Shown here in pieces: positions 20,913 to 24,846 of a DNA stretch of 64,000 nt. The stretch is from positions 1,604,576-1,668,575 of the forward strand of contig NZ_CP048877.1 of NCBI RefSeq assembly GCF_011207455.1, written 5' to 3'. Each line of letters starts with the position of its first letter. Positions within the stretch are counted from its first letter, which is position 1. The translations under genes and the position numbers were made by a program. The notes under the pieces are model-generated. The model ran no database searches. It had not been told where the DNA came from and worked only from the letters and a program-made list of their open reading frames with translations. The DNA comes from Thermosulfuriphilus ammonigenes (GTDB taxonomy: Bacteria > Desulfobacterota > Thermodesulfobacteria > Thermodesulfobacteriales > ST65).

Positions 20913-21394
20913 AGTGTCCTCGTTGCGCCCATCCGGAGACCAAGGTAGTGGATTCCAGAACCACTAAGGATGGAGTGGCTATCCGTCGGCGTCGGGAGTG
21001 TCTCTCATGTAGTCATCGTTTTACCACTTACGAACGGATAGAAGAGAGTCTCCCCATGGTGGTTAAGAAAGACGGCCGGCGAGAGGCCTTTAGCCGGCAA
21101 AAGATAATCGAAGGCATTAAGAAAGCCTGCGAAAAACGACCCATTAGCATGGATGAAATCGAAGCCTTTGTGAACTCCTTAGAAAGAGAGCTGCTTGAGC
21201 GAGGAGAGAAGGAGATTCCTTCAGCTTATATCGGCGAGCGAGTGATGGAAAGGCTTCATGAGTGGGATGAGGTAGCCTACGTTCGCTTTGCCTCGGTATA
21301 TCGTCAATTCAAAGATGTTTCGGAGTTTATTGAACAAGTTCAACAGCTAATCAAGACCCGCAGGGTTCCTCCTAAAAACGCTCCTAAGGCCTAG
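20909..21394 (+). CDS. nrdR: Transcriptional repressor NrdR
   Basis: Represses ribonucleotide reductase genes in response to ATP/dATP. The 161-aa protein has the zinc ribbon (C-P-R-C at 3-6 and C-L-S-C near 31-34) and an ATP-cone (about 49-139, starting [13 protein letters not shown]). It is co-transcribed with the deaminase, linking dNTP control to dNTP synthesis. It converges with the next gene with no space for a terminator. Confidence 0.96.
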
Positions 21395-21789
21395 AAGGTC
21401 AAAACTTTATCGCTACTCCAGATGAGCCGATAAAGATCCTTTCGCCCACCTCGAGGGCAGAGTTCAGAGGGGGAGATCTGGTGCATTTTCATGGCTGTGC
21501 CACAAGCAATGAGCCTACCTCCTTCGTCTAAAAAGGATTCAAGTTTTTCGTCAATATCAAATTCGTCACTATCTATTTCAGAAATAGTCACCCCCTTGCC
21601 CAAAAGAAATATTGTCACTTGATCTCCCTTACTTAAGGCAAAGTTGGCTATTCGTAGGGCCTGCCAGGCAGTCTCTGGGTCATTGGTGGAGATGACAATG
21701 GCTAAACGGTTGGCCTCTTGGGCTTTAAGAACTCCAACCAAAAGGGCTAAGATAACCAAGATTAGCAAGCTAAAATTAATTGCTTTCAT
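21391..21789 (-). CDS. Exported DsrE-family-like protein
   Basis: The 132-aa protein starts with a signal-peptide-like segment (residues 1-23, ending near L-K-A-Q-E-A). The rest looks like a DsrE/YchN fold: [15 protein letters not shown], then [24 protein letters not shown], then [12 protein letters not shown] near residue 90. The Cys there is the position used for sulfur transfer in some relatives; a second Cys follows in E-L-C-P-R-G. Export would place it in the periplasm, unusual for sulfur-relay proteins. Function uncertain. Confidence 0.7.
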
Positions 21790-21849: not shown

Positions 21850-21997
21850 GTCAAGAAACTTAAAACCCGGAAGAATGAAAAGCGTTGCGAGTCAGAGTTA
21901 AAATATATATTTTCTAAAAAAGATTTTTCGGATTTTTGGAGGAACGTATTTTGCTTATTAAGGCCTAAAAACATTACATTGAGAAAGGAGAGGGGCC

Positions 21998-22201
21998 TTG
22001 AGCGCCTTGGGAGCCTTTTTTACCTGGGAAGACTTACTGGTTATTGTGATCGGTGGGGTATCAGTATGGATTCTCTTCCACCATTTTCGTCAGATGATCG
22101 GCGGCAGTGGGGGAGCCTCTGGCTGAGGGGGCTGTGGATCATCCTGCCAGATAGGCGGGAAGGAAGAATCCGAAAAGTCTGAAGTAGACTACCCAAAGTA
22201 A
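21998..22201 (+). CDS. FeoB-associated Cys-rich membrane protein with in-frame TGA (candidate selenoprotein, 67 aa)
   Basis: In the frame from TTG 21998 one TGA (22124-22126, codon 43) interrupts an otherwise sensible small protein ending at TAA 22199-22201. Residues 12-30 form one membrane helix, followed by H-H-F-R-Q-M-I-G-G-S-G-G-A-S-G. Then comes the TGA, then G-G-C-G-S-S-C and a charged tail. This is the layout of the FeoB-associated Cys-rich family, in which a membrane helix is followed by a Gly/Cys cluster. The TGA stands where a Cys is expected, giving U-x2-C-x3-C. A hairpin suited to a bacterial SECIS follows at 22143-22159. AAAGGAG lies 7 bp before the TTG. feoA starts 124 bp downstream. 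Alternatives are a nonsense mutation or early termination; selA, selB and selC are not in the window. Confidence 0.62.
22124..22171 (+). promoter_or_regulatory. Candidate bacterial SECIS element
   Basis: Begins with the in-frame TGA. A 6-bp stem (CCTGCC 22143-22148 with GGCGGG 22154-22159, one U-G pair) closes a 5-nt loop AGATA. A possible lower stem is GGAT (22136-22139) with ATCC (22168-22171). The apical loop begins 22 nt after the TGA and has G at its second position. Both agree with the published bacterial SECIS model: loop 16-37 nt from UGA and G among the first two loop bases. Pairing was judged by eye; no energy was computed. Confidence 0.5.
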
Positions 22202-22324: not shown

Positions 22325-22552
22325 ATGCGCTCCTTAGATGGTTTTGGTGCTGGGGCTCGATTGCGGGTGGTTTCTGTTAGGGGGCGGGGGGCTGTGAGGA
22401 GGCGAATTCTTGATATGGGTCTCGTTCCCGGGGTGCTTCTGGAGATAGAAAGGGTGGCTCCGTTGGGAGATCCGGTGACGGTAAGGCTTCGTGGTTATTA
22501 TCTTTCTCTGCGTCGGGAAGAGACCCGTAGCATTATCGTTGAGCCCGTTTAA
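22325..22552 (+). CDS. feoA: Ferrous iron transport protein A
   Basis: The 75-aa SH3-like protein matches FeoA: G-A-x-L-R-V-V-S-V-R-G then R-R-R-I-L-D-M-G-L-V-P-G near residue 27, and a closing R-x-E-E-T-R-S-I-I-V-E. It is a cytoplasmic partner of FeoB needed for Fe(II) uptake. A GGGAGG ribosome site precedes the ATG. feoB follows 59 bp after its stop. Confidence 0.94.
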   Translation: MRSLDGFGAGARLRVVSVRGRGAVRRRILDMGLVPGVLLEIERVAPLGDPVTVRLRGYYLSLRREETRSIIVEPV

Positions 22553-22611
22553 TTTTTTCTCTTTTATTGTTAATGATTCTCTGCAATAGATTCAATAAGG
22601 AGGGGGTTGGG

Positions 22612-24846
22612 GTGTTGGATGAGATAAAGATTGCTTTGGCCGGAAATCCTAACTCAGGCAAGACGACCATCTTTAACAATCTCACCGGGGCCCGCCAGAA
22701 GGTGGGTAATTATCCCGGAGTTACGGTGGAGAGAAAGGAGGGGATATTAGAGCTGGAGGGAGAACGCTTGCGAATCATCGACCTGCCAGGAACTTATTCT
22801 CTGACGGCCTATTCTCTAGAGGAGCTTATTGCCCGTCAGGTCCTCATTGAAGAAAAGCCCCAGATAGTGGTCAATATCGTTGACGCCTCCAATCTTGAAC
22901 GAAATCTCTATCTCACTCTCCAGCTTCTTGAACTCGGGATTCCGGTAGTGGTGGTTCTTAACATGATGGATATCGTCCGTAAGCGGGGCTATCATCTCAG
23001 CCCCCAAGTTTTGTCTAAAGAGCTGGGAGTTCCGGTAGTTTCTACCGTAGGGCACCGTAAAGAGGGAATGAAAGATCTCCTTCAGACAATAAAAGGGGTC
23101 CTCAAAGGGGAGATTAAGGCTTATGGCCTAAAGAGACGTTTTCCGGCGCCCATTGAAGAGGCAATTGATCATCTTCAGAGAAGTCTGGCCGGAAGAGGCC
23201 TTCCGGCTGAACCTCGCTGGCTGGCCATTAAGGCCTTGGAGGGAGATGTTGAAGTTCTGCGTCTTCTTAGGGAGAAGGCCGGTCTTAATGGAGAGTTGGA
23301 GGATATCCTTCATGAGGCCATCAAGATCCTTGAGGAAAAATGTGGGGCTGATCCAGAGAGCCTCTTAGCCGATGCCCGCTACCAGGCTATAAGCGATTTA
23401 GTCTCCCGTTCTCTTAAGCGTCCGAAGACTGAAACGGTCAGCCTTTCCGATAGGATAGACCAGGTTTTGTGTCATCGTTTTTGGGGGCTACCCATATTTC
23501 TGGTCTTTATGTGGTTTATGTTTCAGGCCGTCTTTAGCTGGTCGGCACCCTTTACTGAGGCCCTGGAGGGCTTTTTTTCCTGGTTGGGCGGCCGGGTGGA
23601 GGCCAGTCTGCCTTCTGGTCACCTAAGAAGCCTTCTTGTTGACGGTATTATCGGTGGGGTGGGGGGAGTTTTGGTCTTTCTTCCTCAAATTATTATCCTC
23701 TTCCTCTTTATTGCCCTTTTTGAGGATACAGGCTACATGGCCCGGGCGGCCTTCATAATGGACCGGGCCCTTTCTCCCTTGGGGCTCCACGGCAAAAGTT
23801 TTGTGCCCCTTCTTTCGGCCTTTGGTTGCAACATTCCAGGAATTATGGCGGCAAGGACTTTAGAGAATCAGCGCCTGCGCCTTTTAACCATCTTAGCGGC
23901 CCCATTTATGAGTTGTACGGCCAGGCTGCCTATTTATATCCTGTTTATTGCCGCCTTTATCCCCCAGAGGGAATTCCTCGGGGGTTTGGTTAATCTTCAG
24001 GGGCTCGTTCTTTTTGGGATCTATCTTTTAGGTATTTTGGCGGCGGTGATCACGGTGCTTATTTTTAGCCGGACCGTCCTTGCCGGTGAAAAGCCCCCCT
24101 TTGTTATGGAGATGCCTCCCTATCGGATCCCAACTCTGCAAACCCTTTTCCTCCATATGTGGAATCGGGCTGTTCTTTACCTGCGCAAGGCAGGGACAAT
24201 CATCTTGGCCATCTCGGTTCTTATGTGGCTTCTGTTTACCTTCCCCTCAAATCCGACTCTTGAAAAGAACTATGCTTCTCTTAAGGAGGAGGCCGCTCAA
24301 AGATTCCTGACAGAGACAAGCCTTACCCCGGAGGAGGTAGCAGGCCTTGATCTCTCCAGAGCTGAGAATGAATCCCTTGCCCGGGCCTATTCTGCCTATC
24401 AGGCCCGCATTTCTGAAATAGAGCGTCAGCAGGCCGCCGAGAGGCTTGAGAAGAGCTATGCTGGTCGCCTGGGGCAGCTAATAGAGCCCTTGATCCGCCC
24501 CCTTGGTTTTGACTGGCGTGTGGGTGTGGCCCTTACCAGTGCCTTTGCCGCCAAAGAGGTCTTTGTGGCCACTATGGGACAAATCTATTCGCTGGGAGAG
24601 GTGGGGGAGGACAATCCTTCCTTGATAGATTCCATCCGTAAAGATCCTATGTTTAGTCCTCTTACCGGAGTGGGGGTGATGATATTTTCTCTCCTTATGC
24701 TTCCTTGTATGGCCGCTCTTTCGGTAATTAAAATGGAGACGGCTTCCTGGAAGTGGCCGCTGGTGGTTGTTCTCTGGAATATGTCCTTGGCCTGGTTGGC
24801 CACCTTTTTCGGGGTTCGTCTTCTGGGGCCTCTTTTTTATTCCTAG
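22612..24846 (+). CDS. feoB: Ferrous iron transporter FeoB
   Basis: GTPase-coupled Fe(II) importer of the inner membrane. Start chosen at GTG 22612 because AAGGAGGG lies 8 bp before it; upstream frame to 22567 adds an unconserved stretch. The cytoplasmic G domain has G-N-P-N-S-G-K-T-T, V-G-N-Y-P-G-V-T-V-E, D-L-P-G-T-Y-S-L and N-M-M-D. A helical domain follows (about 180-290). The membrane part contains the Gate motifs (F-L-P-Q-I-I-I-L-F-L and M-S-C-T-A-R-L-P-I-Y) with the conserved Cys. Length about 745 aa. A predicted coiled, charged loop near residues 560-620 separates the last membrane blocks. Confidence 0.95.
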   Translation: MLDEIKIALAGNPNSGKTTIFNNLTGARQKVGNYPGVTVERKEGILELEGERLRIIDLPGTYSLTAYSLEELIARQVLIEEKPQIVVNIVDASNLERNLYLTLQLLELGIPVVVVLNMMDIVRKRGYHLSPQVLSKELGVPVVSTVGHRKEGMKDLLQTIKGVLKGEIKAYGLKRRFPAPIEEAIDHLQRSLAGRGLPAEPRWLAIKALEGDVEVLRLLREKAGLNGELEDILHEAIKILEEKCGADPESLLADARYQAISDLVSRSLKRPKTETVSLSDRIDQVLCHRFWGLPIFLVFMWFMFQAVFSWSAPFTEALEGFFSWLGGRVEASLPSGHLRSLLVDGIIGGVGGVLVFLPQIIILFLFIALFEDTGYMARAAFIMDRALSPLGLHGKSFVPLLSAFGCNIPGIMAARTLENQRLRLLTILAAPFMSCTARLPIYILFIAAFIPQREFLGGLVNLQGLVLFGIYLLGILAAVITVLIFSRTVLAGEKPPFVMEMPPYRIPTLQTLFLHMWNRAVLYLRKAGTIILAISVLMWLLFTFPSNPTLEKNYASLKEEAAQRFLTETSLTPEEVAGLDLSRAENESLARAYSAYQARISEIERQQAAERLEKSYAGRLGQLIEPLIRPLGFDWRVGVALTSAFAAKEVFVATMGQIYSLGEVGEDNPSLIDSIRKDPMFSPLTGVGVMIFSLLMLPCMAALSVIKMETASWKWPLVVVLWNMSLAWLATFFGVRLLGPLFYS

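Follow-up and report, generated by a model that had tools for sequence, protein, structure and literature searches.

Two groups of small accessory proteins in the Feo iron-acquisition system offer points of comparison for the gene analysed here. FeoC, which in E. coli is able to carry an Fe-S cluster on its Cys-rich motif (PMC8749426), resembles the candidate in being a small Feo accessory with such a motif; however, FeoC is cytoplasmic whereas the candidate carries a membrane helix before its cluster, and the likeness is one of analogy. The FeoB-associated Cys-rich family (Pfam PF12669, FeoB_associated) has in common with the candidate its short length, an N-terminal membrane helix, a Gly/Cys-rich tail and a place in a feo locus, although its genes are usually reported after feoB (PMC8749426) and the candidate precedes feoA. 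In 2022 it was still considered unsettled whether functional peptides are made from such Cys-rich open reading frames (ORFs) (PMC8749426). Selenocysteine (Sec) has been assigned, mostly by computational prediction, to several metal-handling proteins (MerT-like, PF02411; MbdU, NF045648; SO_0444 efflux, NF033936; PMC13188914), which, as proposed for the candidate, place Sec in a metal transport or binding protein but belong to other families, outside the Feo system. An inventory published in 2026 lists 119 families or subfamilies of prokaryotic selenoproteins, none of them under Feo or PF12669 (PMC13188914), and a literature search pairing FeoB-associated with selenoprotein returned no paper among those under open licence, so that an earlier report elsewhere is possible.

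The candidate gene lies in a 64,000-nt stretch of the Thermosulfuriphilus ammonigenes genome, referred to as a whole as the window. Its translation is LSALGAFFTWEDLLVIVIGGVSVWILFHHFRQMIGGSGGASG-TGA-GGCGSSCQIGGKEESEKSEVDYPK-TAA, preceded by a good Shine-Dalgarno sequence and starting at a TTG (Table 1). This reading bears out the initial annotation, which had described a frame with a helix, S-G-G-A-S-G, a TGA at codon 43, G-G-C-G-S-S-C and a terminal TAA; the TGA is the only one in frame. From the sequence and an alignment, and counting Sec as one Cys, the product consists of a single membrane helix, judged by eye, followed by a Cys cluster, which as read is spaced U-x2-C-x3-C.

Table 1. Features of the candidate gene and the adjoining feo genes (window coordinates)
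Feature	Position	Strand	Basis or detail
Candidate selenoprotein gene, 67 aa, putative Sec at codon 43	21998..22201	+	Membrane helix, then U-x2-C-x3-C
Shine-Dalgarno-like AAAGGAG	21984..21990	+	Sequence; 7 nt before TTG 21998
In-frame TGA, Sec codon candidate, codon 43	22124..22126	+	Homologues have Cys at this position
TAA, end of read-through frame	22199..22201	+	Sequence
SECIS-like hairpin UCCUGCC-AGAUA-GGCGGGA, 7 bp	22142..22160	+	Loop 22149-22153, −11.2 kcal/mol
feoA	22325..22552	+	PF04023, 2.8e-19
feoB	22612..24846	+	TIGR00437, 602 bits; GTG start after AGGAGG likely

Against PF12669 the candidate scores 16.9 bits, below the gathering score of 27, as does the feoB-adjacent relative L194 (23.0); we therefore call it PF12669-like rather than file it as a member. 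Its match to a profile of its own relatives is clear, and it differs from the FeoB-associated family in carrying a probable Sec for one Cys, with only two other cysteines in the tail. No NCBIfam model fitted the candidate, no convincing match was found among solved structures, and the plasmid records contained none.

Directly 3′ of the candidate, on the same strand, are feoA and feoB, both confirmed by Pfam and NCBIfam models; the mechanical ORF of feoB begins at 22567. A Cys-rich membrane gene stands immediately 5′ of feoA-feoB at two other loci (L121 and L122) and immediately 5′ of feoB at a third (L120), all in members of the taxonomic order of the host whose FeoB proteins are 57-61% identical, and many other homologues of the candidate directly adjoin feoB. 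On its 5′ side, the candidate is flanked by a divergent gene (21391-21789, minus strand) for a DsrE/DsrF-like protein (PF02635), whose N-terminus appears to hold a signal or a membrane segment.

Homology across the TGA was measured with a profile built from 20 Cys-containing relatives, from which the window was excluded. Read through, the product reached 45.8 bits if Cys was placed at the TGA and 37.6 bits if X was, versus 25.2 bits when ended there; with Cys, the gain past the TGA was 20.6 bits. None of 5000 nucleotide shuffles of the 72 nt after the TGA reached 45.8 bits; codon shuffles did so in 20 of 5000 cases, which is what a stretch rich in Gly, Ser and Cys would lead one to expect. When the codons following each of the 1989 window TGAs were grafted in turn, 45.8 bits was attained by the candidate only, the next best reaching 41.7. 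Although the Cys homologues are no more than 11-31% identical to the candidate, over short lengths, they carry Cys at the position of codon 43 and conserved sequence beyond it instead of all ending at the TGA, and the proposal that the TGA occupies a Cys position in a C-x2-C-x3-C-type cluster was upheld. Which Cys is replaced is ambiguous, as the register may be set on either the first or the second one.

Homologues were sought in some 400 genomes of the phylum, in three other classes and in the class to which the window belongs. Apart from one distant case (G229, 24% identity), no in-frame TGA occurred among more than 200 other listed homologues, and no close relative sharing the TGA of the candidate was found. 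The three further classes, with more than 150 matches listed, yielded no TGA except in G229 itself, and a heuristic scan of distant FeoB loci of other phyla gave none at the cluster among the helix-plus-Cys candidates listed. Three weak TGA-bearing profile matches from the same class (G398, G399 and G028; E 0.17-0.32) were set aside as short, low-scoring stretches.

The host genome, a single contig of 2,287,345 bases, encodes the complete set of genes for Sec incorporation whose absence would have spoken against the initial proposal: selA, selB and selD were detected above curated cut-offs, and selC was found by Rfam as a tRNA-Sec, which ARAGORN confirmed with a TCA anticodon, i.e. tRNA-Sec(UCA). 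In-frame TGAs also interrupt selD (ASG-U-AAK) and fdhA, which encodes a formate dehydrogenase alpha subunit (1362 bits; VEHQARI-U-HS; G000:C1:980431-983445), and together with a further such gene, L210, and the machinery they make it very probable that UGA is read as Sec at other sites in this host. The selD gene is itself a selenoprotein gene (G000:C1:748881-749804, minus strand), and a 13-mer, GCCTCTGGCTGAG, is common to it and the candidate around their Sec codons, both of which read ASGU. L210 is a second molybdo-oxidoreductase gene (NCARV-U-HA; G000:C1:336181-336909, minus strand); the loop of its downstream hairpin, GGUCU, 18 nt from the UGA, is that of E. coli fdhF.

Like a bacterial SECIS of the E. 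coli fdhF type, the candidate has a hairpin just 3′ of its UGA with a small loop and a G within the first two loop bases. The initial annotation had rightly given the loop as AGATA, but the stem comprises 7 bp rather than 6. Published constraints on bacterial SECIS elements allow loops of 3-9 nt and stems of 4-16 bp, and call for a G at one of the first two loop positions, a distance of 16-37 nt from the UGA and an energy of at most −7.5 kcal/mol (PMC13188914); folding placed the candidate hairpin within all of them (5 nt, 7 bp, G at loop position 2, 22 nt from the UGA to the loop, −11.2 kcal/mol). Its loop lacks the commoner G[G/U] element of the pattern N(0-1)G[G/U], which is frequent in SECIS elements but not required (PMC13188914), and by this feature and its spacing (22 versus 18 nt) it differs from that of L210 in the same genome. 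Hairpins within these constraints follow 4.2% of the 1989 window TGAs, and hairpins as stable as that of the candidate follow 1.3%; under a simpler stem score 1.9% equal or beat the candidate. When folded in isolation, the region stands out only modestly (z −1.05 and −1.81). The host selD hairpin fails the energy limit, and the rule is therefore neither fully sensitive nor specific. We regard the hairpin as moderate support for Sec.

When 395 genomes of the phylum were scanned with a profile, one other good match bearing a TGA emerged, in G229, a selB-positive genome of a different family. Its read-through protein, MDGLPALGILAAAGWVFYRSFIRKKGP-U-AGCSGCASQPCGESNNNGNDRLVRLFL, scores 55.4 bits versus 28.3 when not read through, a level reached by none of 10000 shuffles. 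It shows 50-59% identity to four relatives with Cys (L190 and L192-L194), which have in common with it a DRLVRL-type C-terminus 3′ of the TGA (DRLVRLF in G229). Its hairpin (GGGAU-GCGC-AUCCC, 16 nt after the UGA) is, at −4.8 kcal/mol, weaker than the published limit. In an alignment whose register is uncertain because of the short Gly-rich tail, the first pair of cysteines has the G229 TGA at its first member and the window TGA at its second, and the two TGAs may thus replace different cysteines. At its locus (L176 3805-5878) the G229 gene does not adjoin feoB; its neighbours are a Fur-family gene (PF01475) on one side and a PF13557 outer-membrane gene on the other.

Taken together, machinery, homology past the TGA and a SECIS-type hairpin make it, in our judgement, very likely that Sec is inserted at the UGA at 22124, where relatives have Cys, in agreement with the initial annotation. 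That the TGA is an ordinary stop, with a 42-aa membrane peptide as product and GGCGSSC a coincidence, is what standard ORF calling would return, since it ends the ORF after 42 aa; given the 20.6 bits gained past the TGA, unmatched by nucleotide shuffles or other TGA contexts, and the Cys cluster that homologues have there, this is hardly credible. It is also improbable that TGC or TGT in a Cys-containing FeoB-associated gene has recently mutated to the nonsense codon TGA, or was misread as TGA in sequencing, with a hairpin present by chance. TGA is one base away from either Cys codon and is absent from close relatives, both of which such an event would accommodate; however, an equally good hairpin accompanies so few of the window TGAs (1.3%), and in-frame stops among clear matches, in a set of more than 200 listed homologues, are TGA only and occur in just two genomes, the host and G229, both with selB. 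The TAAs in two strong matches (G042 and G102) are true terminators 3′ of the last Cys.

A further reading accepts Sec but detaches it from Feo: the product would be a general membrane thiol/selenol reductase or another soft-metal binder, adjacent to feo by chance. The surroundings of the G229 gene, with Fur-family and outer-membrane genes in place of feoB, would suit it, as would the prediction of other selenoproteins that handle metals, such as MerT-like and MbdU (PMC13188914). Against this stand the position of the gene before feoA-feoB both here and in the same taxonomic order, the many homologues that adjoin feoB, and the fact that the Cys relatives of the G229 gene do so too; we regard a role unconnected with Feo as possible but rather unlikely. 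Given Sec, a Feo-linked metal or redox role is somewhat favoured.

In the favoured reading, SelA, SelB, SelC and SelD would decode the UGA as Sec, guided by the hairpin, to yield a 67-residue single-pass membrane protein. The positive-inside rule suggests that its U-x2-C-x3-C tail is cytoplasmic, as the N-terminal side is acidic and HHFRQ follows the helix. Next to FeoB, the selenol and thiols of this tail could serve as ligands for incoming Fe(II) or for an Fe-S centre; alternatively, a reversible selenenyl-sulfide could sense the redox state and adjust FeoB. Such a role would recall the one played by the Cys-rich tail in FeoC. The proposal in the initial annotation that Fe(II) uptake depends on selenium may hold, but reaches further than the evidence. 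We tentatively put forward the broader picture of an unreported selenoprotein family that would bring selenium into a Feo accessory, would make iron acquisition responsive to selenium supply in this bacterium and would have gained Sec at least twice independently. As to the translation of FeoB-associated Cys-rich ORFs, the combination of a UGA, a SECIS-like hairpin and a conserved tail in a Sec-decoding genome, together with a second lineage, argues that such ORFs are translated and kept for a reactive thiol or selenol.
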